A DNA stretch of 64,000 nucleotides from a virus. Both the position numbers and the translations under genes were made by a program. Under the pieces are notes generated by a model, which saw only the letters and a program-made list of their open reading frames with translations, was not told where the DNA came from and did not search any database. Shown here in pieces: positions 17,309 to 33,975 of the stretch (position 1 is its first letter; each line of letters begins with the position of its first letter). Location: IMG/VR virus record IMGVR_UViG_3300046048_000227, positions 1-64,000 of that record. One strand, written 5' to 3'.

Positions 17309-18190
17309 ATGGCTAAAGACAAGAAAACCACGATTGAAATTGTAACTGACGCGATCCTAAAGGCACTGGAAGAGGGAACAGTGCCTTGGAACAAACCTTG
17401 GATAAGTACTGGTGGCAAGGCATTAAGCATGTCCACCAAGAAACCTTATAGAGGCTTTAATTCCCTAGCTCTTTATGTAAGCTCACTAGATGGAGGCTTT
17501 ACTTCTCCATGGTGGGGTACTTACAAAAAGATAAATAAGTTGGGAGGTAAAGTAATACAAGGTCAACACCCAACCCCTGTTAGCTTCTACAAGTTCTTCA
17601 AGAAAGTAAATGACGAAGGTGAAGAAGAGACCAGAGTAATGCACAGATACTACAACGTCTTCAACCAACAACAAGCAGAAGGACTTGACGAAGTATTCCC
17701 AATAGCAGAGGCAGAAGAGTTTGAGTTTACTCCAATAGAGCGTGCCGAAGCACTAGTAGAAGGCTATACAAACAAGCCAGAGGTAGACTACGGTGGCGAC
17801 AGAGCATTTTACATGCCAACTAGAGATAGAATTGGTATGCCAGAACAAAAACAATTCACAAGCCCTGAAGAATTTTACAGCGTACTCTTCCACGAGTTTA
17901 CTCACAGTACTGGGCACAAAGACAGACTAAACCGTGATCTTTCTGGTATGCAAAGTAGCCATAAGTATTCTTACGAAGAACTAGTAGCTGAGATGGGTGC
18001 TGCTTTCATGTGCTATGAAGCAGGCATAGAAAATACACTTGATAACTCAGCTAGCTACCTAGCCTCCTGGTCAAGAGCACTGAAAGATAAACCTGTTTGG
18101 ATAGTACGAGCAGGAAACAAAGCACAGCAAGCTTTTGATTACATGCTAGGCAAAAGCTATGATGATGAGGAGGATAAAGATGCAAACTAA
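17309..18190 (+). CDS. ArdC-type anti-restriction / zincin-domain protein
   Basis: 293 residues, the usual size of ArdC-like proteins. The N-terminus (TDAILKALEEGTVPWNKPW) matches the ssDNA-binding ArdC N-domain pattern; His195-Glu196-x-x-His199 within FHEFTHSTGH is the zinc protease motif of the C-terminal metallopeptidase-like domain. Plasmid ArdC proteins bind single-stranded DNA and protect incoming DNA from restriction. AAGGAG lies upstream. With the Lar-type ribbon gene and the methyltransferases it points to restriction evasion. Confidence 0.88.
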   Translation: MAKDKKTTIEIVTDAILKALEEGTVPWNKPWISTGGKALSMSTKKPYRGFNSLALYVSSLDGGFTSPWWGTYKKINKLGGKVIQGQHPTPVSFYKFFKKVNDEGEEETRVMHRYYNVFNQQQAEGLDEVFPIAEAEEFEFTPIERAEALVEGYTNKPEVDYGGDRAFYMPTRDRIGMPEQKQFTSPEEFYSVLFHEFTHSTGHKDRLNRDLSGMQSSHKYSYEELVAEMGAAFMCYEAGIENTLDNSASYLASWSRALKDKPVWIVRAGNKAQQAFDYMLGKSYDDEEDKDAN

Positions 18191-19397: not shown

Positions 19398-19652
19398 ATG
19401 AGGATAAACCCAGATAACAAAGGGCAAACACACGAAGGGAAGTACGTTTGGAGACCGCTGATCCAGCACGAACCAGACGACTTCCCTCCCAACAGCAAAT
19501 TCTGGTTGCTTAGAGCAAGAAAAGAATTAGATGTGTTGCAGGGTATTGACAACTCGTGGGAAGAATGGTATAATAATGAGATACCAGATGAGGCAACCTG
19601 CAAAGACATAGCAACCATGATCCTTAACAGGATACAGGAGATGAGTACTTAA
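19398..19652 (+). CDS. Unknown phage protein
   Basis: 84 residues, charged, helical C-terminal half. The binding site is weak (AGGAT). Its stop overlaps the next start (TAATG). Confidence 0.65.
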   Translation: MRINPDNKGQTHEGKYVWRPLIQHEPDDFPPNSKFWLLRARKELDVLQGIDNSWEEWYNNEIPDEATCKDIATMILNRIQEMST

Positions 19653-19912: not shown

Positions 19913-19984
19913 GGGCACGTAGTGACAACGGGAACACACCTCTTTTGCACGGAGGAAATTCGGGTTCGAGTCCCGACGAGTCCA
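19913..19984 (+). tRNA. tRNA-Ala(TGC), one acceptor mismatch
   Basis: Anticodon loop TTTGCAC between CCTCT and GGAGG; T-arm TCGGG-TTCGAGT-CCCGA; short D-stem GTG/CAC. The acceptor GGGCACG/CGAGTCC has one A-A mismatch, so a degenerate gene cannot be excluded. Confidence 0.6.
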
Positions 19985-20082
19985 CCTCATTAAATTTTTT
20001 TATATTTTTTTTTACATGTGTATACGCACATAGTAAGTACGCATTAACGTTAGTAGGTCGCGATTTTTCCAAGGCCTGACTT

Positions 20083-20154
20083 AGCGGGATAGTTTAACAG
20101 GCAAAACGCTTGGCTCTGACCCATGAATCACAGGTTCAAATCCTGTTCCCGCTT
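20083..20154 (+). tRNA. tRNA-Gln(CTG)
   Basis: Acceptor AGCGGGA/TCCCGCT is perfect; anticodon loop CTCTGAC reads CTG; T-arm ACAGG-TTCAAAT-CCTGT. One mismatch in the anticodon stem. Confidence 0.85.
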
Positions 20155-20159
20155 TATTT

Positions 20160-20232
20160 TGGCTTCTAGTTCAATTGGCAGAACGTTGGTCTTTGACACC
20201 AAAGGTTTGTGGTTCGATCCCACAGGAGCCAG
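20160..20232 (+). tRNA. tRNA-Gln(TTG)
   Basis: Acceptor TGGCTTC/GGAGCCA; anticodon arm TTGGT-CTTTGAC-ACCAA; T-arm TGTGG-TTCGATC-CCACA. Five bases after the other Gln tRNA. Confidence 0.88.
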
Positions 20233-20260
20233 CTACATTAATACTAAATAGGAGATACGT

Positions 20261-20608
20261 ATGTCTATTACTTCACCAAGGAAGGCTGCAACAATAGAGA
20301 TTGTTAAGTTTAATCCTATTGAGTTGCGTATCGACACGGCAGCTACTAAAAAAGTCAAGACTAACCAGTATGTACAGGTTTTTTTACCTAGAATAGAAAG
20401 CAAAAGGTACCCTGACAGGAGAATACCAAGGCTTGGGATACAAATAAATGTCAAGAAACCGGAAGACGAAAGATTAGTAGAAGACTTTGCTTATTTGATA
20501 GTGTCTAGTGAGAGTGATTTGTACAAACACTGGAAAAACAGAGAAAAAGAAATAAACACAGGCATTTATATAGGAGATGTACTCATAGGAGCACCCTTGA
20601 CAATGTAA
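20261..20608 (+). CDS. Unknown phage protein
   Basis: 115 residues, basic N-terminal half and acidic C-terminal half. AGGAG precedes the ATG. A strong promoter for the downstream RNA region begins inside its last codons (20597). Confidence 0.75.
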   Translation: MSITSPRKAATIEIVKFNPIELRIDTAATKKVKTNQYVQVFLPRIESKRYPDRRIPRLGIQINVKKPEDERLVEDFAYLIVSSESDLYKHWKNREKEINTGIYIGDVLIGAPLTM

Positions 20609-20625
20609 ATAACTTGTGATATACT
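20597..20625 (+). promoter_or_regulatory. Sigma-70 promoter for the RNA region
   Basis: TTGACA (20597-20602), exactly 17 bases, TATACT (20620-20625). It lies immediately upstream of a 490-base stretch of structured RNA containing tRNA-His. Confidence 0.8.
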
Positions 20626-21122
20626 TAGTAATAACAGTGCCTTAAAAGTAATCACAGACTTGCGAGGCATTTTTGAACAGAAGATGTAGTACCTTAACAA
20701 CTGAAACATCGAGTACTAACGGTGTATGTGCACATCTGGGGAGACGCTGGTTGCCAAGCAACAAAGCACCGCGGAGAGAAGCAAGCGGAGGACTTGCATT
20801 AGTACTATCGAGGTGTCTATGGCGGAACTGGTAGACGCACCTAGCTGTGACCTAGGTTATTGTGGGTTCAAATCCCACTAGGCACCCTTGTGTATTGCGA
20901 AGGACTAGAAGCCTTGGTACCTAGATAAAAAACAACAGTGGCTTCCTGATGAGTAAGCGTGGTGCACTTACCAAGTGTGTCCTGACAAGTGAGACACTAG
21001 ATTAAAACCTGTGCACTAGGTTTTAGTCCAACGTCACGCAATACTTTGAGGACTGCACTATGGCATTATCCTAGGAGGTAATAGACTGGGAGCGGGTGCA
21101 ACAGTTAGGCAGTCCTCACCCC
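20626..21122 (+). ncRNA. Large structured RNA of unknown family around tRNA-His
   Basis: No gene fits here, but strong helices do: AGATGT/ACATCT (20682/20732), GTTGC-caa-GCAAC (20750-20762), GCAAG/CTTGC (20781/20793), GTATTGCG/CGCAATAC (20892-20899/21037-21044) closing several hairpins including AAAACCT/AGGTTTT (21004-21024), and TGAGGACTGC/GCAGTCCTCA (21047-21056/21109-21118). A strong promoter precedes it. Large ornate RNAs such as GOLLD and ROOL occur near phage tRNAs, but I cannot assign this one. It may be more than one RNA. Confidence 0.6.
20812..20886 (+). tRNA. tRNA-His(GTG)
   Basis: Acceptor GTGTCTA/TAGGCAC plus an encoded G at -1 opposite C73, the hallmark of bacterial tRNA-His. 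Anticodon arm CCTAG-CTGTGAC-CTAGG; T-arm GTGGG-TTCAAAT-CCCAC. The D-arm is of the Leu-like GGCGGAACTGGTAGACG type. Confidence 0.85.
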
Positions 21123-21196
21123 GCCGTTCTGGTGTAAGTGGTCGGTCACATCTGTTTGAAAAACAGAAGGTTCTGGTTCGACTCCAGGGGGCGGCA
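21123..21196 (+). tRNA. tRNA-Phe(GAA)
   Basis: Acceptor GCCGTTC/GGGCGGC with two G-U pairs; anticodon arm TCTGT-TTGAAAA-ACAGA; T-arm with TTCGACT loop. Confidence 0.83.
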
Positions 21197-21226
21197 CAAA
21201 AATATTAAAAAATTTTGGAGGCTGTT

Positions 21227-21547
21227 ATGTTTGACAAACAAGAATTATTTGAACAGTATCATCAAGCTTTACATCTTGGCAACTTAGATGCCAAAGAAGA
21301 AATCTTTAAGAAAGTACCAACGATCTTAGCCTACGTAAGGAAGCTTGAAAGAGACGTTGAAAGAGAAACAGAAAGAGCAGACACAGCCGAAGCAAAACTA
21401 ACGGTAGCTACGCCAAAGAAAAAAAGAACCCCTAAGCTAAAGGCTAAGGCTGAAGTAGTAGAGAAGGTTGAAGAGGTTGAAGTTCCTGATGAACTAGAAG
21501 ACGAAGAAGTATCAGCGGTTAGTCAGGACGAAGACTATCCGTTTTAA
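21227..21547 (+). CDS. Coiled-coil protein with SSB-like acidic tail
   Basis: 106 residues. The first 65 are a charged helix or coiled coil, then a Lys-rich stretch (PKKKRTPKLKAKA), then an acidic tail ending SQDEDYPF. That tip resembles the DDDIPF tip by which bacterial single-stranded-DNA-binding proteins recruit partners, but no OB-fold is visible. GGAGG is well spaced from the ATG at 21227. Located between tRNA genes. Function unknown. Confidence 0.75.
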   Translation: MFDKQELFEQYHQALHLGNLDAKEEIFKKVPTILAYVRKLERDVERETERADTAEAKLTVATPKKKRTPKLKAKAEVVEKVEEVEVPDELEDEEVSAVSQDEDYPF

Positions 21548-21557
21548 CATGTAACAT

Positions 21558-21631
21558 CTGGGTGTAGCTCAGACAGGAAGAGCACTGCGTTTGGGGCGCA
21601 GGGGCCAGTGGTTCAAATCCACTCTCCCAGA
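21558..21631 (+). tRNA. tRNA-Pro(TGG), copy 1
   Basis: Anticodon arm CTGCG-TTTGGGG-CGCAG; T-arm AGTGG-TTCAAAT-CCACT; acceptor CTGGGTG/CTCCCAG with one T-T mismatch. Confidence 0.8.
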
Positions 21632-21635
21632 CTAT

Positions 21636-21711
21636 GGTTTCGTGGTGTAGTTAGGGCTAACACACTTCCCTGTCAAGGAAGAGACCGCGGGTTCAAATCC
21701 CGTCGAAACCG
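21636..21711 (+). tRNA. tRNA-Asp(GTC)
   Basis: Acceptor GGTTTCG/CGAAACC perfect; anticodon arm CTTCC-CTGTCAA-GGAAG; T-loop TTCAAAT. Confidence 0.88.
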
Positions 21712-21716
21712 CTAGA

Positions 21717-21799
21717 GGCAATGTCGGTGCATGGGACACCAACCAGGCTGTAACCCTGGCGTCTTTATGGCTATGTAGGTTCGATTCCTATCGTTGCCA
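21717..21799 (+). tRNA. tRNA-Tyr(GTA)
   Basis: Acceptor GGCAATG/CGTTGCC; anticodon arm CCAGG-CTGTAAC-CCTGG; long variable arm as expected for bacterial tRNA-Tyr; T-arm GTAGG-TTCGATT-CCTAT. Confidence 0.88.
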
Positions 21800-21843
21800 C
21801 CTTGCTTGTGAGGACTCTCCTGTCCTGTTTGGGAGCGCAAGCA

Positions 21844-21870
21844 CCCCCCACAGGTGATATCAGTGGGGGG
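21844..21870 (+). terminator. GC-rich hairpin inside the tRNA cluster
   Basis: CCCCCCAC (21844-21851) pairs with GTGGGGGG (21863-21870). No T-run follows. It may be a processing or attenuating hairpin rather than a terminator. Confidence 0.45.
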
Positions 21871-21882
21871 AGAATATATACC

Positions 21883-21960
21883 GAGGCGGAGACCATGACA
21901 TGGTGTTCTTACAAATACCGAATTTGTACTTGGACACCATTACAAGTAGGTCTCCGCCTC
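21883..21960 (+). ncRNA. Rod-like three-helix hairpin RNA
   Basis: Nested perfect helices: GAGGCGGAGACC/GGTCTCCGCCTC (12 bp, 21883-21894/21949-21960), ATGGTGT/ACACCAT (21900-21906/21934-21940) and TACAAAT/ATTTGTA (21910-21916/21922-21928) with a 5-base loop. It lies between tRNA-Tyr and tRNA-Trp, has tRNA-like length, but no D- or T-arm. Unknown RNA. Confidence 0.6.
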
Positions 21961-21966
21961 AATCTC

Positions 21967-22037
21967 AGGCTATTCGGTTAATGGTAAACCAGCGGCTTCC
22001 AATCCCGCGACTGGAGGTTCGATCCCTTCATAGCCTG
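21967..22037 (+). tRNA. tRNA-Trp(CCA)
   Basis: Acceptor AGGCTAT/ATAGCCT perfect; D-stem GGTT/AACC; anticodon arm GCGGC-TTCCAAT-CCCGC (one C-C next to the loop); T-loop TTCGATC. Spacing from the D-stem fixes the anticodon as CCA rather than TCC. Confidence 0.78.
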
Positions 22038-22045
22038 CCTGTACT

Positions 22046-22123
22046 GCGGTGATAAAGTCTTGGTAGACTTGCCAGTTTCATATGCTGGTTCTTAAAAGGT
22101 GCAGTTCGATTCTGCTCACCGCT
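22046..22123 (+). tRNA. tRNA-Met(CAT), copy 1
   Basis: Acceptor GCGGTGA/TCACCGC; D-stem AAGT/ACTT; anticodon arm CCAGT-TTCATAT-GCTGG; T-loop TTCGATT with a four-pair T-stem. CAT could also belong to a tRNA-Ile read after lysidine modification. Confidence 0.75.
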
Positions 22124-22168
22124 ACCTAGCTAAACAACTGTTCGACAACCCCCCTCATTTGGCTAGCC

Positions 22169-22209
22169 TGCTCTGAGCTAGCGACGATCCTTTACTGATA
22201 ATCAGAGCA
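22169..22209 (+). other. Hairpin just upstream of the tmRNA
   Basis: TGCTCTGA (22169-22176) pairs with TCAGAGCA (22202-22209), ending two bases before the tmRNA 5' end; it may help processing of the tmRNA precursor. The rest of 22124-22211 shows another short helix (CTAGC/GCTAG) and no gene. Confidence 0.5.
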
Positions 22210-22211
22210 TC

Positions 22212-22497
22212 GGGGATGCAAGGCTTCGACAATGGTAATGATAGATGTACTGCGGGAAGAGCGGTGCCGATCTCTTTAACTCAGCACAACAACCATAACT
22301 GGCAAAAATTTTGCTAACCTTCTCATGATCAATGATCCTGAGCGTCACCTAGTTCCTCAACAGGCGGAGTTAGTACTGGCGTCATAATCCTGTGTAACAA
22401 AGTAATGCCCTGCTTTAGGCTGATCACCAACGATCTACTCCCGTAGATGTACTACCTTGATTGCAATTGGACTCCAGTTCGATTCTGGACATCTCCA
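22212..22497 (+). ncRNA. ssrA: tmRNA (ssrA)
   Basis: The 5' end GGGGATG pairs with CATCTCC at the 3' end; GGCTTCGAC follows the acceptor strand as in tmRNAs; the 3' domain has a perfect T-arm TCCAG-TTCGATT-CTGGA, discriminator A and encoded CC. At 286 nt it is in the normal range. tmRNA rescues stalled ribosomes and adds a degradation tag. An open frame from GGC at 22301 to TAA at 22385 encodes 28 residues starting GKNFANLL and ending QQAELVLAS, a plausible tag; the true resume codon could be further downstream in that frame. Confidence 0.93.
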
Positions 22498-22503
22498 CCT
22501 TTA

Positions 22504-22550
22504 AGGTGAGTAAGGGAAACTCTGGAGCGAGTCACTCCACCCTCTCACCT
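22504..22550 (+). other. Structured spacer after the tmRNA
   Basis: AGGTGAG (22504-22510) pairs with CTCACCT (22544-22550) around an inner TGGAG/CTCCA hairpin. It separates the tmRNA from tRNA-Leu and may guide 3' processing. Confidence 0.5.
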
Positions 22551-22553
22551 CCA

Positions 22554-22628
22554 GCTATTGTGAAGGGAATTGGCATACCTACGATACTAAGAATATCGTG
22601 ATTAGTGGTTCGAGTCCACTCAATAGCA
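22554..22628 (+). tRNA. tRNA-Leu(AAG), short variable region
   Basis: Acceptor GCTATTG/CAATAGC; anticodon arm CGATA-CTAAGAA-TATCG; T-arm AGTGG-TTCGAGT-CCACT. The variable region is only TGATT (5 nt), unlike the long arm expected of tRNA-Leu. Confidence 0.75.
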
Positions 22629-22632
22629 CTAT

Positions 22633-22715
22633 GTCGAAGTGGTGGAACTAGGTATACACGCAGCCTTTAGACCGCTGTGCCTTCGGGATTGCAGGTTCGA
22701 CTCCTGTCTTCGACA
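22633..22715 (+). tRNA. tRNA-Leu(TAG), normal long variable arm
   Basis: Acceptor GTCGAAG/CTTCGAC perfect; Leu-type D-arm; anticodon loop TTTAGAC; long variable arm with CC-TTCG-GG; T-arm GCAGG-TTCGACT-CCTGT. Confidence 0.83.
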
Positions 22716-22768
22716 CAGCAGGTATTTGCGAAGCAACGGTAGACGCTTTATCCTTTGAGCTACGAGGG

Positions 22769-22803
22769 AAGAGCAGGGGCACAAGAAGCCCTTGCTCTTT
22801 TCC
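22769..22803 (+). terminator. Rho-independent terminator after the first tRNA block
   Basis: AAGAGCA plus GGGC (22769-22780) pairs with GCCC and TGCTCTT (22788-22799), followed by TTTT. Ends the tRNA/tmRNA block before the next promoter. Confidence 0.8.
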
Positions 22804-22820
22804 GTGTAGCATGGTATAAT
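22792..22820 (+). promoter_or_regulatory. Extended -10 promoter for the methyltransferase genes
   Basis: TTGCTC (22792-22797), 17 bases, TATAAT (22815-22820) preceded by TGG (extended -10). The weak -35 lies in the terminator's 3' arm. Confidence 0.7.
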
Positions 22821-22853
22821 AATTGTAGCTTAGTGGGAACTTGCTTAAGGGGG

Positions 22854-22879
22854 AAGGGCAGGGACAAACCCCTGCCCTT
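22854..22879 (+). terminator. Leader hairpin upstream of the first methyltransferase
   Basis: AAGGGCAGGG (22854-22863) pairs with CCCTGCCCTT (22870-22879), then TACTC. It lies between the promoter at 22792 and the start at 22904, so it looks like an attenuator; nothing shows what would control it. Confidence 0.5.
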
Positions 22880-22903
22880 TACTCTCAATTGAAAGGAAAT
22901 AAT

Positions 22904-23539
22904 ATGCCGATCATACAAGTAAAAGGTGAACTACCAAAACGGGTTGAACTGGATGTGTACCCAACCCCGATAGAATATACAAGAGCCGTTTTAAAATTTC
23001 TCCAGCTTTCTCATTACCCAATAGAAAGTTACGAGTACACACTAAGGATACTAGACCCAGGTGCTGGTTCAGGTATATGGGGTCAAGCTGTAAAAGAACT
23101 ATACCCACACGCAGAACTTCATGGTACTGAATTAAGAGATGTACCGCCTCCACCACACTACGATCATTGGCACATAGGAAAGTATGAGCTACTTCCTGAC
23201 ACAGTTGGTAAGTTCGATCTTATTGTAGGCAATCCCCCTTACTATGTACTAGAAGATTTCATGGACAAAAGCTTTGAGCTTTTACATGATTATGGAATGT
23301 TAAGTTTCCTTTTACCTGCCTCTTTTTCTGAGAGCAAGAAAAGGTACTTAAAATATTTTAGTAAGCAGGATTATTACAAACCTACAATGATCATTAACTC
23401 TGTCCGCAGGATAAGTTTCACTGGTGATGGCAAGTCTAATGCTACAGCCTACGCACAGTACACATGGGTTAAGCACGAAAAAATTAATGGAGACCCAGTA
23501 CCTACTTACTGGTTGGATTGGGAATATGACAAAGACTAG
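22904..23539 (+). CDS. DNA adenine-type methyltransferase
   Basis: 211 residues. DPGAGSG (51-57) is the S-adenosylmethionine-binding motif I and NPPY (110-113) the catalytic motif IV of amino-methyltransferases, here in the gamma-class order typical of N6-adenine enzymes. No target-recognition domain is obvious, so it is compact. The ATG at 22904 follows AAAGGA. Likely protects phage DNA from restriction or marks it. It overlaps the next methyltransferase by 14 bases, so the two form a pair. Confidence 0.88.
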   Translation: MPIIQVKGELPKRVELDVYPTPIEYTRAVLKFLQLSHYPIESYEYTLRILDPGAGSGIWGQAVKELYPHAELHGTELRDVPPPPHYDHWHIGKYELLPDTVGKFDLIVGNPPYYVLEDFMDKSFELLHDYGMLSFLLPASFSESKKRYLKYFSKQDYYKPTMIINSVRRISFTGDGKSNATAYAQYTWVKHEKINGDPVPTYWLDWEYDKD

Positions 23540-24380
23540 TTCATTCGGTGTAAGCAAGAGAGAAAACCACGACGCTACAAGATTCTATGCTCGTAACGTA
23601 TATGATGAGTACTCCAGCTACGAACCTAGGCTACCGGAGGTGCCCGATCCTGAAGACTGGGCAAACGCTCTTATGTGCTCAGATGCTGCACACATAGATA
23701 TTCCTAGAGAAAGCATAGCTCTAACCTTCACATCTCCACCCTACAATGTCGGTAAAGAGTACGAAGAAGACATGACAAAGGATGAGTACGCTGAATTTTT
23801 ATATAACATAGGACTAGAGCTTTACGATGTTACTATTCCAGGGGGTAGGTTTGTTTTCAACACAGCAAACATAGGGCGTAAGCCTTACATTCCTTTAACT
23901 AAGCTTGCCTATGAAATCTTTGCTGATACCATAGGGTTTTTGCCTGCTGGAGAAATTATCTGGGTAAAAGGAAAAGGCGCAAGCGGTAGCTGTGCTTGGG
24001 GTAGCTGGAACAGTGCTAAAGCACCAAGATTACGTGATTTGCATGAGTACTTACTAGTTTTCTGTAAAGAGAACTACTCCAGGTATGACAAAGGCACCTC
24101 AACCATGGAAAAAGAAGAGTTCATGGAGAGTACCCTGTCTACGTGGTACATAGCACCAGAATCTGCTAAAAAAGTAGGGCACCCTGCTCCGTTCCCATTA
24201 GAGCTAGCTAAAAAAGTAATTAACTTGTTCTCTTACAAGGGAGATGTGATCCTTGATCCTTTTGTAGGCTCAGGCACAACATGTATAGCTGCTAAACAGC
24301 TAGAAAGGTACTATGTAGGCGTTGATTATACACAAGAGTACATAGACTTAGCACAAAAACGTATAGATACGCTGGCGTGA
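23526..24380 (+). CDS. Beta-class DNA methyltransferase
   Basis: 284 residues. TSPPY (69-73) precedes DPFVGSGTT (244-252), the order of beta-class N6-adenine or N4-cytosine methyltransferases; SPPY favours N4-cytosine but does not settle it. The ATG at 23526 lies within the preceding gene; the longer frame starting at 23424 has no binding site. The last codons and stop (TGA, 24378-24380) are part of tRNA-Leu(TAA), which starts at 24371. Confidence 0.9.
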   Translation: MTKTSSFGVSKRENHDATRFYARNVYDEYSSYEPRLPEVPDPEDWANALMCSDAAHIDIPRESIALTFTSPPYNVGKEYEEDMTKDEYAEFLYNIGLELYDVTIPGGRFVFNTANIGRKPYIPLTKLAYEIFADTIGFLPAGEIIWVKGKGASGSCAWGSWNSAKAPRLRDLHEYLLVFCKENYSRYDKGTSTMEKEEFMESTLSTWYIAPESAKKVGHPAPFPLELAKKVINLFSYKGDVILDPFVGSGTTCIAAKQLERYYVGVDYTQEYIDLAQKRIDTLA

Positions 24381-24445
24381 AGGGAAAAGGCATACCTACC
24401 TCACTTAAAATGAGGTGATTGGTGGTTCGAGTCCACCCGTCAGCA
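24371..24445 (+). tRNA. tRNA-Leu(TAA), short variable region, overlaps upstream gene
   Basis: Acceptor GCTGGCG/CGTCAGC; anticodon arm CCTCA-CTTAAAA-TGAGG; T-arm GGTGG-TTCGAGT-CCACC; variable region TGATT. Positions 8-10 (TGA) are the stop codon of the methyltransferase gene. Confidence 0.78.
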
Positions 24446-24448
24446 CTA

Positions 24449-24561
24449 TGCTGTGAGAGTGATGGGTTAAGGGTTCGAGTCCCTCTCAAAGGTCGCTCCT
24501 TTGTAGCCTATCTAGTGAGTATACGCACGATGGTAAGTAGGTACAGCCCACTCTCACAGCA
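24449..24561 (+). ncRNA. T-arm-containing RNA closed by a 13-bp inverted repeat
   Basis: TGCTGTGAGAGTG (24449-24461) pairs perfectly with CACTCTCACAGCA (24549-24561). Inside are a T-arm-like AGGG-TTCGAGT-CCCT, then an acceptor-like hairpin CAAAGG-tcgct-CCTTTG, then TAGCC... with GTAgCCTA/TAGGTAC. The order (T-arm, 3' acceptor, 5' acceptor, D-like part) is that of a circularly permuted tRNA, but the D-like part is too long for a normal tRNA. It may equally be a tRNA relic or an unknown structured RNA. Confidence 0.45.
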
Positions 24562-24589
24562 GACAAACGAATTGAATAAGGAGTCTAAG

Positions 24590-24838
24590 ATGATTAGTGT
24601 GAAGCTAGCAGAAACTATTAAGGAAATGAAATTCCAATTAAAAGACCTTACTTATGAGAATTATACAAGTAGTCGTAACGCATTCATTGGCACAGTTAAT
24701 AATGGCGATGTGAGCTTATACCTTGTGTCATTCTCTAGAATAATAAAGGCAAATAACTTTAACAATACTTGGGCACACCCAGAGACTGAAGTGACTGTAA
24801 AAGAATGGGTTGATGTAACTATCACGGTAGACCAATGA
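24590..24838 (+). CDS. Unknown phage protein
   Basis: 82 residues with AAGGAG upstream of the ATG at 24590; the upstream frame runs through tRNA-like sequence and is ignored. Beta-rich pattern. Its stop overlaps the sulfotransferase-like gene. Confidence 0.72.
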   Translation: MISVKLAETIKEMKFQLKDLTYENYTSSRNAFIGTVNNGDVSLYLVSFSRIIKANNFNNTWAHPETEVTVKEWVDVTITVDQ

Positions 24839-25512
24839 GTAACATACTAATCTACCAGATGGGTAGGGTAGGCAGTGTCGCAATTCGCAACTCATTGAAG
24901 GCTGAAGGAGTTAAAGCTACTCATCTACATTACATAATGACAGAAGGTGAGCATCCAGCTAGGCACTTACCAGAACTAAAGGAACAAATACTTGGACGTA
25001 AGGTGCCCTTCAAAATTATTGTTTTAGTACGCGACCCAATAGCTAGGAACATATCGGCTTTCTTCAGAACTCTTGACAATAGAGAATGGACAGGGTATAA
25101 TAGGAAATTGCTGAAGAAGTTTATGACAGAGTATAACCATGTCTGGGCATTAGCTTGGTTCGATCTAGAATTTAACCCTGCTTTCTTTGATATATATGCA
25201 ACATACTATAGTCCAGAACACAGTACTTATAAATTTCCTCCAGCAGATTTTATTATCCTTCGCACAGAAGACTTAAGTAAAAAAAGAACTGCTGACCAGC
25301 TTACTAGTTTCCTAGGAATAGAAAAAATACAAATTATTAAAGCTAACGCAACAGAGTACGCTCCTAAAAGAGCACCTTTGTATAAAGACTTCTTGGATAA
25401 TGTCAAGCTACCACTACACTACGTAGAGTACATGTACAACACCCCGTACACAACACAATTCTATACAGAAAAAGAGATAGAGAGAATGACTAAGCGTTGG
25501 ACAGGAGAATAA
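24835..25512 (+). CDS. Sulfotransferase-like protein, paralogue 1
   Basis: 225 residues. IYQMGRVGS (6-14) resembles the 5'-phosphosulfate-binding loop and RDPIARNISAFF (66-77) the 3'-phosphate-binding motif of PAPS-dependent sulfotransferases. The pattern matches what I remember of the family called putative capsular polysaccharide synthesis protein. Such enzymes would move sulfate from PAPS to a sugar or other acceptor. Two paralogues follow at 25717 and 28678. Substrate unknown; overlaps the preceding gene by four bases. Confidence 0.75.
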   Translation: MSNILIYQMGRVGSVAIRNSLKAEGVKATHLHYIMTEGEHPARHLPELKEQILGRKVPFKIIVLVRDPIARNISAFFRTLDNREWTGYNRKLLKKFMTEYNHVWALAWFDLEFNPAFFDIYATYYSPEHSTYKFPPADFIILRTEDLSKKRTADQLTSFLGIEKIQIIKANATEYAPKRAPLYKDFLDNVKLPLHYVEYMYNTPYTTQFYTEKEIERMTKRWTGE

Positions 25513-25513
25513 T

Positions 25514-25729
25514 ATGAATCAAGACGTACTAAACACTTTATATTTTGAGCAGGCAGAAGCGCGCACAGTTGACCTACTTAACCAGTATTCAGGAAAGTTA
25601 ACACCACTAATAGAGAAGACGATAAAGAACGAGGTGTCTAGTAGGTACCCTACACTGACAGCAGGGGAGATCAACAGAGTGTATGGCAGAGCAGTAAGAA
25701 AATTTGGAGAGACAGTATGCCAACATTGA
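25514..25729 (+). CDS. Small unknown protein
   Basis: 71 residues, helical, one base after the first sulfotransferase-like gene and overlapping the second by 13 bases, with GGAG upstream. Its fixed place between the two suggests a shared transcript. Confidence 0.7.
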   Translation: MNQDVLNTLYFEQAEARTVDLLNQYSGKLTPLIEKTIKNEVSSRYPTLTAGEINRVYGRAVRKFGETVCQH

Positions 25730-26409
25730 TTTACCAAATGGGAAAAGTAGGGTCGATATCCTTACTTAAAGGGCTAGCTGCTAACAAAGTAATATCAACA
25801 CATGCCCATAACCTAGTGAATGTTGAAGGAGAATTTTATGTATCACGGAACAAGGCTATAAAGGAAACTATTGAACTACGACTAGACCACTGGAAAGTAA
25901 TCTCACTAGTCAGAGACCCGATAGCTAGGAACATCTCAGCCTTTGTTCATAAACTATCTAAAAAAAACTACAAAGCATTTCCTAAGTATGATCCATACGT
26001 GCTGCATAGCTTATTTGTAAATAAGTATGACCACCATACTCCGCTTAGATGGTTTGATGAAGAGTTTAACTTATTGTTTGACAATGTATACTCTCGCAAG
26101 TTTAGACATAGAGGAAAGTATTTAAAAATCACCAACGCTGAAAAAAACTATGAAGCTTTAGTACTGCGAACAGAAGATTTAAACTGGTACCATAATGTAA
26201 TAAGAAGTTTTGTTGATATACCACACATTACTATGCCCCACTCTAACTCTATGGCAGAAAAGTTCTGGTTTTATAAAGAGTTCGTTGATTTTATGCGAGG
26301 GAAGATACCACATAGTATAGTTAATGCGCTATACAGCAGTAAGTATACCGAGCACTTTTACTCAAAAGAGGAGATACGGGAATTTGTAAGGTATTGGACG
26401 CTCATATGA
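25717..26409 (+). CDS. Sulfotransferase-like protein, paralogue 2
   Basis: 230 residues, same layout as paralogue 1: LIYQMGKVGS near the N-terminus, RDPIARNISAF at 66-76, and a similar aromatic C-terminus (TEHFYSKEE). Sulfotransferase-like fold inferred from these motifs. GGAG precedes the ATG. The stop codon TGA (26407-26409) lies in tRNA-Leu(CAA), which begins at 26400. Confidence 0.75.
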   Translation: MPTLIYQMGKVGSISLLKGLAANKVISTHAHNLVNVEGEFYVSRNKAIKETIELRLDHWKVISLVRDPIARNISAFVHKLSKKNYKAFPKYDPYVLHSLFVNKYDHHTPLRWFDEEFNLLFDNVYSRKFRHRGKYLKITNAEKNYEALVLRTEDLNWYHNVIRSFVDIPHITMPHSNSMAEKFWFYKEFVDFMRGKIPHSIVNALYSSKYTEHFYSKEEIREFVRYWTLI

Positions 26410-26474
26410 AGGGAATTGGCATACCTAGCATACTCAAAATATGCTGTTTCCTGGTTCGACTCCAGGTATGAGCA
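26400..26474 (+). tRNA. tRNA-Leu(CAA), short variable region, overlaps upstream gene
   Basis: Acceptor GCTCATA/TATGAGC; anticodon arm GCATA-CTCAAAA-TATGC; T-arm CCTGG-TTCGACT-CCAGG; variable region TGTTT. Positions 8-10 are the stop codon of the sulfotransferase-like gene. Confidence 0.78.
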
Positions 26475-26475
26475 C

Positions 26476-26504
26476 TTGACAAACGTAACATACTGTGGTA
26501 GTAT
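26476..26504 (+). promoter_or_regulatory. Sigma-70 promoter
   Basis: TTGACA (26476-26481), 17 bases ending CTGTGG, TAGTAT (26499-26504), two bases after the tRNA-Leu(CAA) discriminator base. Confidence 0.76.
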
Positions 26505-26513
26505 GGATATATT

Positions 26514-26591
26514 GTGGCTTATATACTAGTACTCCTGTTGCTTGCGCTTTGTCTAATCTTTGAGATTTTTGATCATCTCAGAGGCAAGTAG
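26514..26591 (+). CDS. Possible leaderless 25-residue membrane peptide
   Basis: A GTG frame starting about 10 bases after the -10 box encodes a hydrophobic segment followed by DHLRGK. No ribosome binding site, so it would have to be nearly leaderless. Its stop overlaps the first base of tRNA-Ser(GCT). Could be chance. Confidence 0.3.
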   Translation: MAYILVLLLLALCLIFEIFDHLRGK

Positions 26592-26675
26592 GAAGGTTGG
26601 CAGAGAGGAAATGCGTCTACTTGCTAAGTAGTAGCCGTCCTAACGGGTGCAGAGGTTCGATCCCTCTACCTTCCG
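26591..26675 (+). tRNA. tRNA-Ser(GCT)
   Basis: Acceptor GGAAGGT/ACCTTCC; anticodon loop TTGCTAA; long variable arm; T-arm AGAGG-TTCGATC-CCTCT. Shares acceptor and D-arm with the two other Ser tRNAs. Confidence 0.87.
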
Positions 26676-26698
26676 CCTAGATTTAGAGGAGTTATTAT

Positions 26699-26971
26699 AT
26701 GGCAAAGAAAATGATATTAAGAAGAATGAACAACTCCCTACCTGAGTTAGTAAGCATGGTAAGAGAGAGCAAGCTAGAGAATAGAGTGTTCTTATGTAGG
26801 AAAGGGCCAGCTATCTTCACTAGTATGTTGTACTTTGCTAAGGCTGAAGACTTACTGAAAGGGGAAGAACCAAACATTCCTGGAATTGGTATGCTATTTT
26901 TTGTAACAGAAAAAGTCAGGCTCCCAGTAGGAGATGCAGATGAAGTAAACCTTATTTTATTAAAAGATTAG
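26699..26971 (+). CDS. Unknown phage protein
   Basis: 90 residues, basic N-terminus, otherwise mixed. GGAG upstream. Its last codons and TAG stop (26969-26971) fall inside the first helix (P1) of the RNase P RNA. Confidence 0.73.
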   Translation: MAKKMILRRMNNSLPELVSMVRESKLENRVFLCRKGPAIFTSMLYFAKAEDLLKGEEPNIPGIGMLFFVTEKVRLPVGDADEVNLILLKD

Positions 26972-26985
26972 TGTAGTCTTGCGCT

Positions 26986-27001
26986 GGTCTAAGTTTAGAC
27001 T
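26986..27001. promoter_or_regulatory. Palindromic element copy 4, also RNase P helix P3
   Basis: GGTCTAAGTTTAGACT is the fourth copy of the AGTCTAAATTTAGACT family. Here it sits where helix P3 of RNase P RNA must be, so its dyad symmetry may serve RNA structure, protein binding, or both. Confidence 0.6.
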
Positions 27002-27042
27002 AGAGGAAGCTCAGGACTGCTCCGCTTAATGTAGGAGGATAT

Positions 27043-27240
27043 ATGACAGGTGAGTGTACCCACGAACACACAGCAACCTTTACTTATAATGACTGGGTAC
27101 ACCCAGAAACTAGAGAGGAAGTATGTCTAGACTGTCAGAAATCTGTTAGCACTACAGAGGCAGCGACACCAATAGACTCAGTGGGTGAGCGGCACGACAA
27201 GTCTGGTAGGTGGCACCCGCAAGGGACGGCACAGCCGTAG
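27043..27240 (+). CDS. Possible zinc-binding protein nested in the RNase P RNA gene
   Basis: 65 residues with a good AGGAGG upstream. The N-terminal half reads like a real protein: CTHEH (5-9) and VCLDCQ (28-33) could form a zinc site. The C-terminal half is encoded by sequence that also has to form conserved parts of RNase P RNA. Either the gene has been fitted into the RNA's specificity domain or the frame is fortuitous. Confidence 0.5.
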   Translation: MTGECTHEHTATFTYNDWVHPETREEVCLDCQKSVSTTEAATPIDSVGERHDKSGRWHPQGTAQP

Positions 27241-27287
27241 ATAGATGCAAGACCACGACAGAATCCTGGCTATCGCACTAATCTTTA

Positions 27288-27316
27288 TTGACTTATCTTA
27301 CCATGTGTGGTATAAT
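27288..27316 (+). promoter_or_regulatory. Strong sigma-70 promoter for a tRNA block
   Basis: TTGACT (27288-27293), 17 bases ending TGTGG, TATAAT (27311-27316), four bases after the RNase P RNA end and nine before tRNA-Cys. Confidence 0.85.
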
Positions 27317-27324
27317 TACTTACT

Positions 27325-27396
27325 GACCTCGTAGCCAAGTGGGAAGGCGGGTGGTTGCAACCCATCTAAGCGCAGGTTCGATTCCAGCCGAGGTCT
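27325..27396 (+). tRNA. tRNA-Cys(GCA)
   Basis: Acceptor GACCTCG/CGAGGTC; anticodon arm GGTGG-TTGCAAC-CCATC; T-loop TTCGATT with one A-A in the T-stem. Confidence 0.83.
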
Positions 27397-27399
27397 CTA

Positions 27400-27471
27400 G
27401 CACCTATCGCCTAAAGGACGGGCACTTGCCTTCGAAGCTTGTCTGTGCAGGTTCGATCCCTGCTAGGTGCT
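27400..27471 (+). tRNA. tRNA-Arg(TCG)
   Basis: Acceptor GCACCTA/TAGGTGC perfect; D-stem GCCT/GGGC; anticodon loop CTTCGAA with two T-T mismatches in the anticodon stem; T-arm GCAGG-TTCGATC-CCTGC. Confidence 0.78.
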
Positions 27472-27476
27472 CTTAC

Positions 27477-27550
27477 GCTCCCGTAGCTCAGAGGACTAGA
27501 GCAGTTCTCTTCTAAAGAAAAGGTCACAGGTTCGAGTCCTGTCGGGAGTG
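27477..27550 (+). tRNA. tRNA-Arg(TCT)
   Basis: Acceptor GCTCCCG/CGGGAGT (one G-U); D-stem GCTC/GAGC; anticodon loop CTTCTAA; T-arm ACAGG-TTCGAGT-CCTGT. Confidence 0.85.
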
Positions 27551-27553
27551 CCT

Positions 27554-27703
27554 ATGAATGATGAATATAGAATAGTTTTTGACTACGAAATTGGTATGGA
27601 AGTCATAGAAATAGTGCCTCCTGCTGATCCTAATATATTAGAGGTATCAGAAGAGGCATTCAATGACTCCTTAGCAGAGTATATAGACAGTCCCTGTGGT
27701 TGA
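27554..27703 (+). CDS. Small acidic protein between two Arg tRNAs
   Basis: 49 residues, acidic. The only ribosome-binding-like sequence is GGGAG, which belongs to the acceptor of tRNA-Arg(TCT) five bases upstream. Its 3' end overlaps tRNA-Arg(GCG) by 14 bases. Confidence 0.55.
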   Translation: MNDEYRIVFDYEIGMEVIEIVPPADPNILEVSEEAFNDSLAEYIDSPCG

Positions 27704-27762
27704 GCAGGACACAACACTACCCTGCGAAGGTAGAGACACAGGTTCGATCCCTGTCAGGGACT
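27690..27762 (+). tRNA. tRNA-Arg(GCG), overlaps upstream gene
   Basis: Acceptor GTCCCTG/CAGGGAC; anticodon arm CTACC-CTGCGAA-GGTAG; T-arm ACAGG-TTCGATC-CCTGT. A G34 Arg tRNA is unusual in bacteria, which normally use ACG (inosine) for CGN. Confidence 0.8.
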
Positions 27763-27768
27763 CTCTCA

Positions 27769-27842
27769 GGCTGTGTCGTCTACTTAGGTTAGGACAGGAG
27801 GCTTTCAACCTCCAGAACAGGGTTCGAATCCCTGCATAGCTA
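27769..27842 (+). tRNA. tRNA-Glu(TTC)
   Basis: Anticodon arm GGAGG-CTTTCAA-CCTCC; T-arm CAGGG-TTCGAAT-CCCTG; acceptor GGCTGTG/CATAGCT with two G-U pairs. Confidence 0.83.
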
Positions 27843-27871
27843 CTATAATGAAAATACAAAAGGAAGATGCG

Positions 27872-28129
27872 ATGACAAACAGAACAATGTGCGACGTACT
27901 GCAAGAGATGCGTAAGCTAAACAAAACTCGTAACTACAGTGCACTGGCAGGTCTTATTGAAGAAGCACAGATACTTGGCAATCGCATGGAAGCAGCAGTG
28001 TACGATAAACATGATGTAGAACATTACAACAAAGAAAGAAGAAGATTAAAAGCAGAGCTAAAAAAACTTAAAGATACAAAAGATGCGCTAGAACTTGAGA
28101 TCAGTGAACTAGGAGGAGACGATGGTTAG
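27872..28129 (+). CDS. Unknown coiled-coil protein
   Basis: 85 residues, mostly charged helix with a Lys/Glu-rich coiled coil (about 50-80). The ATG at 27872 is favoured by AGGAAG six bases upstream; an in-frame ATG at 27848 is possible. It overlaps the next gene by eight bases. Confidence 0.7.
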   Translation: MTNRTMCDVLQEMRKLNKTRNYSALAGLIEEAQILGNRMEAAVYDKHDVEHYNKERRRLKAELKKLKDTKDALELEISELGGDDG

Positions 28130-28550
28130 TAGAGCTACAGTATACTTAGCTGGCGGTATGCACAGTGACTGGCGAGAACAAGTTAAGATGGGAGTACAGC
28201 ACACAGTAAACTTTTTTGACCCCTGCACACATGGATTTAAATCAGAGGATGCTTATACCTTTTGGGACATACAAGCTATAAGAAAGTCTGACATAGTGTT
28301 TGCTTACATGGAACCAGATAACCCGTCCGGTGTAGGTTTGGCATTTGAAATAGGGTATGCTGTAGCTTTAGGACGTAGTGTTATTTTTGTGGATCAATCT
28401 TCTGAAGAAACTAGAAAATACTGGGGTATGTGTAGGGCAGCTAGCACTGTTACCACTACTAGTATAACTGAAGGTATTCACCTACTAAACTACACGATTG
28501 ACTTGATAACAGTAGACCCAAGTGTTGGAATATTACATCCTCCTGGGTAA
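28122..28550 (+). CDS. Nucleoside 2-deoxyribosyltransferase-like protein
   Basis: 142 residues. YLAGGM at the N-terminus, SDIVFAYMEPDNPSG and FEIGYAVALG (Glu76 in the catalytic position) follow the pattern of the nucleoside 2-deoxyribosyltransferase family. These enzymes exchange bases on deoxyribose or hydrolyse (deoxy)nucleoside monophosphates, which would feed phage nucleotide metabolism. GGAGG precedes the ATG. Its TAA stop (28548-28550) lies in tRNA-Pro copy 2. Confidence 0.78.
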   Translation: MVSRATVYLAGGMHSDWREQVKMGVQHTVNFFDPCTHGFKSEDAYTFWDIQAIRKSDIVFAYMEPDNPSGVGLAFEIGYAVALGRSVIFVDQSSEETRKYWGMCRAASTVTTTSITEGIHLLNYTIDLITVDPSVGILHPPG

Positions 28551-28615
28551 GGTGTTGCAGGATACATACCCGATTTGGATTCGGGAGTGCGTAGGTTCGA
28601 TCCCTACTGCCCAGA
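28543..28615 (+). tRNA. tRNA-Pro(TGG), copy 2, overlaps upstream gene
   Basis: Acceptor CTGGGTA/TGCCCAG; anticodon arm CCCGA-TTTGGAT-TCGGG; T-arm GTAGG-TTCGATC-CCTAC. Same anticodon as the copy at 21558 but a different body. Confidence 0.84.
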
Positions 28616-28677
28616 CTATATTTACTTATGTTTTAATTATATATGATTACGTGAAGTAATAACTGGAGAAGAAACTT

Positions 28678-29637
28678 ATGGGAAATAAGATGACTAAGTA
28701 CCAATACTTTATTACCTACGAGATACCAGACGCCGACATAAGTAGTTGGCAAGTAATAACCACAGAGCGACCCATTAAAACAACAAAGGATGTGTCTGCT
28801 ATCTTATCTCAAATTTTAATAATGGCAGAAGCTGATCCACCAATCAAGCCACTGAGCATATCATACTTGAGTGAGTACAACATAGAGCTACCCGATAGTG
28901 TCATACTATACCAGATGGGTAGAGTTGGTTCAGTATCTTTGAGATCAGCGTTAGAAAGTTTAGAGATACCAACAAGGCATGTACATTACCTAGCAGACTA
29001 CGGGGAGTACGAATCCAAGCACGATCCTGCTTTCATGAAAAGGATTAAGACAGAAGAAAGAGTATGGACAGTAATAAGTGTTGTAAGAAATCCTATAGCT
29101 AGAAACTTATCTGCTTTCTTCTGGAATATTAATAAGTATTACCCAGACATTGATAAGTACCCAGACTATAGCCCACCATTACTCGACGCTTTCTTATATA
29201 AGTATCCACACTTTACTACTTCTGATTGGTTTGATAACGAGCTTAACAAAGTATTTGACTACGATATATACTCTAAACCTTTCGAGCACAGTATAGGATA
29301 CACCTTATACGAGCGTCTAGTAGAGAAGCCTAAGTTTATTCTGGCTGTAATAAGAACAGAAGATATATCACGTTCTGCAAACAGCATGTTTAGCGATCTA
29401 CTAGGAGTGAAGCCAAAAGACCCAATAGGTAATGTTAACCTAACACATAAAAGAAAAGCAGTGTCTAGAGCTTTCTTAGATTTTCATAAAGAAGCAGTAC
29501 TACCTAAATATTACTTAGACAATATGTTAAACACTAAGTACTGCCAACATTTCTATACTGATGAGGAGAGGGGTAAACTATATGATTACTGGACTAGCAA
29601 TCCTGCTAGCAGAGAGGGATATTCGTCTAATGGATAG
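28678..29637 (+). CDS. Sulfotransferase-like protein, paralogue 3, with N-terminal extension
   Basis: 319 residues. An extra ~75-residue N-terminal domain (unrecognised) precedes the same core as paralogues 1 and 2: LYQMGRVGS (78-86), VRNPIARNLSAFF, IRTEDI and a YCQHFYTDEE end. RNP replaces the usual RDP. GGAG is upstream of the ATG. The last ~7 codons and stop overlap tRNA-Glu(CTC), so coding and tRNA constraints share the same bases. Confidence 0.75.
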   Translation: MGNKMTKYQYFITYEIPDADISSWQVITTERPIKTTKDVSAILSQILIMAEADPPIKPLSISYLSEYNIELPDSVILYQMGRVGSVSLRSALESLEIPTRHVHYLADYGEYESKHDPAFMKRIKTEERVWTVISVVRNPIARNLSAFFWNINKYYPDIDKYPDYSPPLLDAFLYKYPHFTTSDWFDNELNKVFDYDIYSKPFEHSIGYTLYERLVEKPKFILAVIRTEDISRSANSMFSDLLGVKPKDPIGNVNLTHKRKAVSRAFLDFHKEAVLPKYYLDNMLNTKYCQHFYTDEERGKLYDYWTSNPASREGYSSNG

Positions 29638-29687
29638 GACAGTTGGTTCTCAACCAGCAGATAGGGGTTCAATCCCCCTATATCCTA
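29616..29687 (+). tRNA. tRNA-Glu(CTC), overlaps upstream gene
   Basis: Acceptor GGGATAT/ATATCCT (one G-U); D-stem GTCT/GGAC; anticodon arm GTTGG-TTCTCAA-CCAGC; T-loop TTCAATC. The first 22 bases are also the end of the sulfotransferase-like gene. Confidence 0.8.
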
Positions 29688-29700
29688 CTTGGAGGTGTCT

Positions 29701-29940
29701 ATGGCAACTTTGCACTATGAAAAAATGAGCAACTTCTTAGACAGGTCTAGGAAAGACATTACTGAAGGTGAGTTTAAAGACAGGCTTATGGCTGTGTACA
29801 AAGATATCAACGAAGAGACCAGAGATAGAATGTACGCAGCTTCTAAAAAACTAGGAGGAACAGGCAGTTTCTACCAAGTGCTATTTGTATTTGATACCCT
29901 ATATATGTTAGGACTAGAGGAGTGTAATGGCGAAAGCTAA
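29701..29940 (+). CDS. Unknown helical protein
   Basis: 79 residues, charged and helical. GGAGG precedes the ATG at 29701, 13 bases after tRNA-Glu(CTC). It overlaps the next gene by 14 bases. Confidence 0.72.
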   Translation: MATLHYEKMSNFLDRSRKDITEGEFKDRLMAVYKDINEETRDRMYAASKKLGGTGSFYQVLFVFDTLYMLGLEECNGES

Positions 29941-30193
29941 ACAACCATATGAACGTCCAGTAAAAAAAGATTCTCCAGAACTACCAGAGTACAAGAAAGA
30001 GTACAACCAGTTACACTCAATAGTTAAAATAGGAAATATTGTACAAGTTGATATTCGTAAGATGGACGGCTGCTGGAAACTAGCAACTGTCGAAGGTGTT
30101 GTAGAAAAGATAAACATTAACTCAATGAAACTGTCTGGTAGAGACTTTGCCATCCCTTGGTACACTATACATGACTGGGAGATATTAGAATGA
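29927..30193 (+). CDS. Unknown basic protein
   Basis: 88 residues; a Lys/Pro-rich N-terminus followed by a small beta-rich domain (VQVDIRKMDGCW...). GGAG upstream; overlaps the MazG-type gene by four bases. Confidence 0.72.
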   Translation: MAKAKQPYERPVKKDSPELPEYKKEYNQLHSIVKIGNIVQVDIRKMDGCWKLATVEGVVEKININSMKLSGRDFAIPWYTIHDWEILE

Positions 30194-30615
30194 CTAAAGC
30201 AGCTAAGCTAAGTAAAACACAAGAGTATCAAGACTGGACAGTGCGAACAGCTATATATAGAGACAGCATAGAAGAATACTTAGAAGATCAGCACGCTAAA
30301 AACTCTAACAGAAATTACCCAAAAATACCAGGGGCTAATTACGAAGCTCTCATGCTTGAGATACTATATTTATCTAGCGGTCTTGGTGGAGAAACAGGAG
30401 AAGTTCAAAACCAAATTAAAAAATTAATTAGAGATGGGTACACAGATAGCATTAAAGATAAAATACATGACGAACTGGGTGATGTATTGTGGTATGTAGC
30501 TAGGTTATGTGCTACTCTAGGTCTTGACATGGAAGAAGTTATGCAGTATAATAGGGAAAAGCTTGAGAAGAGACAAGCTGAAGGTAAGTTAAAAGGATCA
30601 GGAGATAACCGATAA
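30190..30615 (+). CDS. MazG-type nucleoside triphosphate pyrophosphohydrolase
   Basis: 141 residues. GGETGEV (66-72) and HDELGDVLWY (93-102) supply the acidic residues Glu68, Glu71, Glu95 and Asp98 of the MazG/all-alpha NTP pyrophosphohydrolase fold. Such enzymes hydrolyse (d)NTPs to monophosphates and in phages have been proposed to alter nucleotide or ppGpp pools. The stop abuts tRNA-Gly(GCC) exactly. Confidence 0.85.
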   Translation: MTKAAKLSKTQEYQDWTVRTAIYRDSIEEYLEDQHAKNSNRNYPKIPGANYEALMLEILYLSSGLGGETGEVQNQIKKLIRDGYTDSIKDKIHDELGDVLWYVARLCATLGLDMEEVMQYNREKLEKRQAEGKLKGSGDNR

Positions 30616-30688
30616 GCGTTTATAGTTCAGTAGGTAGAACGTCTGCTTGCCAAGTAGAAGGTCGTGGGTTCGACCCCCACTAAACGCT
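30616..30688 (+). tRNA. tRNA-Gly(GCC)
   Basis: Acceptor GCGTTTA/TAAACGC; anticodon arm TCTGC-TTGCCAA-GTAGA; T-arm GTGGG-TTCGACC-CCCAC. Begins on the base after the MazG-type stop codon. Confidence 0.88.
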
Positions 30689-30698
30689 CACAATAACT

Positions 30699-30986: not shown

Positions 30987-30987
30987 C

Positions 30988-31016
30988 TTGACAATAAAGG
31001 TAAAGTACTTTACAAT
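30988..31016 (+). promoter_or_regulatory. Sigma-70 promoter for tRNA-Ser(TGA) and the structured RNA
   Basis: TTGACA (30988-30993), 17 bases, TACAAT (31011-31016). It precedes tRNA-Ser(TGA) by 20 bases. Confidence 0.76.
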
Positions 31017-31035
31017 AATAGTTGATAATAAATTC

Positions 31036-31731: not shown

Positions 31732-31749
31732 CCTAATAAGGAGTAGAGA

Positions 31750-33448: not shown

Positions 33449-33452
33449 CTAT

Positions 33453-33531: not shown

Positions 33532-33547
33532 CTTGAGAGGAGGTACT

Positions 33548-33883: not shown

Positions 33884-33890
33884 TTAGCCT

Positions 33891-33964: not shown

Positions 33965-33975
33965 CTGTAATCTTT

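Follow-up and report, generated by a model that had tools for sequence, protein, structure and literature searches.

A compact phage tmRNA with a long, serine-ended tag that may be read past hairpin P5 into pseudoknot PK2

A one-piece tmRNA in a large tRNA array

The stretch of DNA analysed here (the window) corresponds to bases 1-64000 of a virus record 101,694 bases long, which encodes a terminase, a portal protein, a tail tape measure protein, a PolA-like DNA polymerase, a ribonucleotide reductase and an ERF-type recombinase. The best matches in the phage collection were about 25% identical for the terminase and about 31% for the DNA polymerase, and judging by these sequences the record is that of a tailed phage without a close relative in this collection. 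An array of 31 tRNA genes, called by ARAGORN on the plus strand at 19913-35560, surrounds the tmRNA, and with two more tRNAs at 48946 and 49250 the record holds 33 tRNA genes, covering all 20 amino acids and including one CTA suppressor. Upstream of the array, at 19546-19574 on the same strand, lies a 12-of-12 match to a sigma-70 type promoter pattern (TTGACA, 17, TATAAT, with TG), promoter matches in the region being in total not above shuffles.

The tmRNA (ssrA) is a one-piece gene of 288 nt at 22212-22499, which like all its parts described below lies on the plus strand. ARAGORN called it, and the Rfam model RF00023 aligned end to end (model positions 1-374) over 22212-22500 with 106 bits and an E value of 2.1e-40, the gathering score being 47 bits. 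In a scan of the 101,694-base record this was the only RF00023 match above the cut-off; four further ones, all below it, were positioned over tRNAs. An earlier sequence-only reading had recognised a phage tmRNA here, and ARAGORN returned it at 22212-22499 with an identical tag, while the end proposed at that time, 22497, proved to be 2-3 bases too short (22499 by ARAGORN, 22500 by Rfam).

The 5' acceptor strand GGGGATG and a D-like loop with GGCTTCGACA occupy 22212-22231, and the 3' strand of P2, the T arm GGACTCCAGTTCGATTCTGG and the acceptor strand CATCTCC plus ACC follow at 22446-22499, as read from the sequence and the Rfam alignment. GGGGATG pairs with CATCTCC with G-U as the third pair, and the T loop is GTTCGATTC; a G-U at the third acceptor pair is an alanine identity element. 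The tmRNA ends in ACC, followed by T in the genome, so CCA is incompletely encoded and its completion after transcription is required; in this the tmRNA resembles most tRNAs here, since CCA stands at or just past the end in 3 of the 34 genes of the record. We conclude that 22212-22499 is a genuine, complete one-piece phage tmRNA with a variant mRNA-like part.

The tag reading frame, hairpin P5 and candidate PK2

The tag reading frame, GKNFANLLMINDPERHLVPQQAELVLAS, spans 28 codons plus TAA at 22301-22387, from GGC at 22301 to TCA at 22384 with the stop at 22385-22387, and ends in ELVLAS. The sequence-only reading had described this frame, from GGC 22301 through 28 codons to TAA with an LVLAS end; ARAGORN and translation confirmed it, and the ARAGORN structure model keeps the resume codon in the GGC frame rather than moving it to another. 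Immediately before the resume codon stands TAACT (22296-22300), whose T22296 and A22297 match U85 and A86 of E. coli tmRNA, where the frame is set by U85 and above all by A86, 4 bases before the resume codon (PMC2481249). The matches listed yielded 179 distinct tag/upstream pairs, and in these TAACT was found directly 5' of the resume codon in 14 of the 14 distinct cases that bear it, a test that is partly circular because ARAGORN searches for a TAACT-type element; independent evidence comes from the tags of those cases, all 14 of which, Listeria tags starting GK included, end in A among the matches listed.

The neighbouring frames read AKILLTFS (+1) and WQKFC (-1), neither of them degron-like. 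An open frame of 28 codons is unremarkable in itself: when the 199 bases beginning with the resume codon are shuffled, 25% of the shuffles reach it. The tag-end pattern [LIVMF]A[AS] before a stop, which was picked after the tag was known, occurred in 2 of the 1921 plus-strand open stretches of the window that have 8 codons or more (three frames), and a looser pattern in 6 of the 1921. Resumption at GCA 22302, which would give the tag AKILLTFS with a TGA stop inside hairpin P5, would yield a tag of normal length that stops at the P5 place and starts with Ala, as do 106 of 129 tags among the matches listed, and an A is also found 4 bases upstream of this codon. However, TAACT would then be one base too distant compared with all 14 cases above, position -5 would hold an A, corresponding to U85A, which in E. 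coli upsets the frame (PMC2481249), and the end TFS resembles no tag among the survey matches listed, so that we hold this start to be very improbable indeed. On the sequence evidence, the GGC 22301 frame is well placed.

In the mRNA-like part, Rfam's stems are called P5 and PK2 here, after the usual tmRNA nomenclature. A hairpin at 22322-22342 (CTCATGATC/GATCCTGAG; fold -5.9 kcal/mol) is aligned by Rfam with P5, where the usual stop lies in the consensus loop UUAAU. In the window tmRNA the loop is AAU, read in frame as tag, and the hairpin contains no in-frame stop. It occupies the same place as P5 and the stop in three like-sized phage tmRNAs (L376, L402 and L319; 279-289 nt), whose frames stop there after 13-14 codons. 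Since Rfam's placement of P5 was poor in some long-tag controls, the placement here is suggestive only.

Next to this hairpin lies a candidate PK2 (22343-22398), whose stem at 22343-22381 falls in the tag frame (fold -10.2 kcal/mol) and whose loop, ACAGG, is complementary to CCTGT immediately 3' of the stop, the TAA being placed between the two stems. In the Rfam alignment the stem falls on the PK2 stem and the GUCA that follows is aligned as well, and the second helix, of 5 bp, was reached by 3.5% of shuffles. A candidate PK1 at 22256-22294 (AAGAG/CTCTT plus GTGC/GCAC) has helices reached by 14% and 32% of shuffles; taken singly, the candidate helices of PK1 and PK3 were no better than chance, and fold energy was likewise no better than in shuffles (z -0.59 for the whole gene, -0.38 for 22301-22440). 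Of the pseudoknots that the sequence-only reading expected around the frame, one plausible PK2 pairing was thus recovered, the other helices being at chance level as single helices. In a crude test for a stop in a hairpin loop, the window tmRNA failed, which says little given that 61 of 113 one-piece controls, and 4 of the 20 with tags of at least 15 residues, passed it among the matches listed.

Length, Rfam alignment and folding together suggest that the tag frame passes the usual P5 stop and enters the PK2 stem-loop. With no in-frame stop left at hairpin P5, the ribosome would continue for 14 codons, across the 5' stem-loop of PK2, before finishing the tag at the TAA at 22385, just 3' of that stem-loop; the tag would be long because the usual in-frame stop at P5 is missing. 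We infer stop loss as the origin of the long tag, this being the simplest reading.

The tag among surveyed and known tmRNAs

For comparison, three sets of contigs found by 5' patterns were surveyed: at least 120 viral contigs, 99 of which had an ARAGORN tmRNA, at least 118 bacterial genome contigs (96 with one) and a second set of at least 120 viral contigs (98 with one); loci with no ARAGORN tmRNA (21 of 120, 22 of 118 and 22 of 120, respectively) were left out of the counts. The comparison set comprised 168 distinct other tags among the matches listed, including two added ones, from L017 and from Mycobacterium phage ET08. Tags of at least 28 residues made up 11 of these 168, mostly from two-piece phage tmRNAs, and the longest phage tag of the survey, among the matches listed, had 31 residues. 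The last residue of the 168 was A in 157, V in 10, N in one and S in none, while the window tag ends in L-A-S and the canonical Ala-Ala end of the ssrA degron is absent. The tag accounts for 29% of the gene; the largest other share was 25% among the 112 one-piece rows listed for the first surveys and 17% among the matches listed in the second viral set. The 112 nt after the stop are the fewest in the 144 one-piece rows listed; the second-shortest row has 147 there, and all rows other than the window's have a median of 228. The part preceding the tag, at 89 nt, is of ordinary length (median 92, one-piece rows listed).

Thus, phage tmRNAs were known already and long tags are rare yet not new; the unusual points are the 112 nt after the stop, the terminal Ser and the 29% tag share. 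The sequence-only reading had called the tag unusually long, which holds as regards rarity (11 of 168 as long, among the tags listed) and not as regards novelty, with 25 residues in ET08 and up to 31 in the survey. It had also judged that LVLAS fits a proteolysis tag, and the ssrA-degron-like C-terminus supports this. Searches of the open-licence literature, which were not aimed at these points, found no paper on a tag that enters PK2 or ends in Ser. One-piece tags had a median length of 13 residues in phages versus 10 in bacteria among the matches listed (Mann-Whitney p 0.021), a weak comparison of 16 versus 64 distinct, non-independent tags. The idea that this is the shortest tmRNA was dropped: none of the 112 first-survey rows is 288 nt or shorter, but the second survey lists 279 and 287 nt.

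These lengths bear on the main alternative to overrun, an insertion. In that reading a normal start (GKNFAN) and a normal end (ELVLA) would have been separated by an inserted stretch that encodes the tag's middle, P5 being re-formed around the stop. Both ends of the tag are indeed tag-like within one frame, some long tags are apparently extended before P5 (as in L076, with its stop in a local hairpin loop), and a stop-free insertion could look identical to overrun. Nevertheless, a total of 288 nt does not exceed the 279-289 nt of phage tmRNAs whose tags have 13-14 residues, and the part after the stop is the shortest among the one-piece rows listed, and we regard an insertion as rather unlikely, if still worth weighing, and keep to the overrun.

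Several known systems resemble the window tmRNA in part. Canonical bacterial ssrA tags (LAA) share with it a hydrophobic-Ala end before the stop, and the GK start is that of Listeria; unlike them (median 10 residues for one-piece tmRNAs among the matches listed), the window tag has 28 residues and a terminal Ser. The three like-sized IMG/VR phage tmRNAs are likewise compact and one-piece, with 90-95 nt before the tag, whereas their tags of 13-14 residues end in AA and are followed by 147-152 nt versus 112 here. ET08 (Bixzunavirus Bxz1) also carries a one-piece tmRNA in a large tRNA array with a CTA suppressor tRNA, and its tag, ATDTDATVTDAEIEAFFAEEAAALV, is long as well (25 residues versus 28); however, its tmRNA has 435 nt versus 288, its tag starts with ATD and ends in V, and BLAST found no match between the two tmRNAs. 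The tmRNA of the methylophage Melnitz and of other marine phages is phage-encoded, as in the window, but the Melnitz type is permuted and two-piece, with a glutamine riboswitch, while the window tmRNA is one-piece and lies in a tRNA array (PMC9004378). One count put tmRNAs in 402 of 18,146 phage genomes (PMC9004378), huge phages carry tmRNA together with SmpB (PMC7162821), and very high expression is reported for the tmRNA of Wildcat (PMC7474061).

Long tags were also seen in two-piece phage tmRNAs. Nine of these have tags of 23-31 residues with a core NNIVAF-R like that of cyanobacterial tags (compare ANNIVPFAR) and variable tails TA, TV or PA; eight others, on separate contigs of 5-344 kb, have tags of 28-29 residues with a GEVTVSGK core and an LAV end. 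The tag in a Bacillales MAG ends in LLLN, another frame there seemingly having an Ala-rich end, probably through an assembly frameshift. The likeness between the start of the window tag and GNKFANFF of Traorella was taken as chance.

In the search for relatives, IMG/VR protein scans with a 474-aa protein of the record gave one relative (record L006, 47%), which had no tmRNA, those with the terminase gave two (37-38%), neither with a tmRNA above the cut-off, and those with the DNA polymerase gave none. The DNA pattern for the resume region had 10 matches, all in records without a tmRNA; that for the 5' end had four, three of them tmRNAs, all with the tag ALTNTWSRLIANDNGIADYALVA; and that for the T arm had one, an unrelated two-piece tmRNA. 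No homologue of the window tmRNA emerged from these protein scans and DNA patterns, and the tmRNA stands here as a single sequence. A tblastn search of the phage collection with the tag gave no match, the same search also missing the ET08 tag, whose record is included there.

Possible function, and other genes of the record

Taken together, we consider it probable that this is a working tmRNA that resumes at GGC 22301, has lost its P5 stop and is overrun, serves rescue first and bears a possibly weakened degron. During infection its transcription would accompany that of the tRNA array; the host would charge it with alanine, and host SmpB would bring it to stalled ribosomes, in which translation would resume at GGC 22301. 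The main benefit would be the freeing of ribosomes in infection, tag-directed proteolysis coming second. The roles of alanyl-tRNA synthetase in charging and of SmpB in delivery are assigned by analogy with the tmRNA family. SmpB (PF01668) had no match in the 101,694-base record, possibly an incomplete one, and we therefore assume that the host must supply it.

By analogy, ELVLAS is still ssrA-degron-like but has Ser for Ala, and ClpXP may take it less well than the host tag. The terminal Ser plausibly weakens direct ClpX recognition, because the tag's last Ala is a contact point for ClpX and C-terminal mutations impair recognition: with ClpXP, mutating the last or next-to-last Ala raised KM with little change in Vmax (PMC7652416), and an engineered change of LAA to DAS minimises ClpX binding (PMC9382460).

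A decaying or rescue-only tmRNA would also still free ribosomes, its tag being unselected and the length and end of the tag by-products of the lost stop. This would fit an open frame of a length expected in a quarter of shuffles and a tag that uses codons rare in the phage (CTC 3.0, GCG 6.2 and CGT 6.6 per thousand), but it sits poorly with a degron-like C-terminus whose strict pattern is so scarce in the window (the 2 of 1921 open stretches above) and with a tRNA-like domain, acceptor stem and TAACT element that are all intact, and we judge it distinctly unlikely. Alternatively, the long, Ser-ended tag could have been selected to route rescued or host proteins to another protease or adaptor or to spare them from ClpXP, to the benefit of the phage. 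A terminal Ser in none of the 168 other distinct tags among the matches listed, the effect of C-terminal changes on ClpX recognition (PMC7652416, PMC9382460), and the proposal, already in print, that phage tmRNA tags host proteins all favour such a role, the Melnitz authors having suggested either ribosome rescue or host-protein tagging (PMC9004378). Yet LAS is one base from LAA (TCA to GCA) and drift explains the Ser equally easily, and no phage protease or adaptor family (Clp, Lon, FtsH and SspB) was found among the ORFs scanned in the record; selection for retargeting therefore seems to us improbable, and redirection away from host proteases is a hypothesis only.

We give a similarly small chance to a further reading, in which the coding frame overlaps its own PK2, which would be unwound at each tagging, and the LAS end is a selected weak or redirected degron. 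Were this true, ribosomes would be freed and yet not all of the rescued proteins, some of them possibly viral, would be passed to host ClpXP. Phage tmRNAs are little studied, and a natural overrun with a Ser-ended tag would be a ready-made test case for whether they act in ribosome rescue or in protein destruction.

The protein-family scans covered 134 ORFs and the DNA polymerase (PHROGs only), from a hand-edited version of a list of 145 ORFs and restricted to ORFs of at least 70 aa, with ORF 61797-65423 covered in part; the ORFs removed from the list mostly ran counter to their neighbours and had 72-116 aa, with one of 141 aa (31116-31538). One ORF within 473-35493 of the window matched Phage_VG64 (PF25682, named after a mycobacteriophage; E 6e-51), which hints faintly at an actinobacterial host or at gene exchange with such phages. 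The tRNA with the CTA anticodon (27477-27552), labelled Pyl by ARAGORN, is of the amber suppressor type, like that in the ET08 array; TAG recoding, which it suggested, was not supported, since 21 of the 81 non-overlapping ORFs with 120 aa or more terminate in TAG. Inside the array lies a gene for an RtcB RNA ligase (31750-32913), perhaps for repairing tRNAs cut by host defences, and across it three proteins have an NKWYS domain (PF10364; 24835-25509, 25717-26406 and 28678-29634), one of them also matching Sulfotransfer_2. Tandem genes at 38097-39518 and 39521-40909 encode related proteins of 474 and 463 aa with no PHROGs match, each of which matches the same two neighbouring proteins of record G001 at 46-48% identity. 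The record further encodes an ArdC-like anti-restriction protein with a metallopeptidase domain (17309-18187), proteins with DNA methylase, Lar and Mom family matches, and a peptide deformylase.
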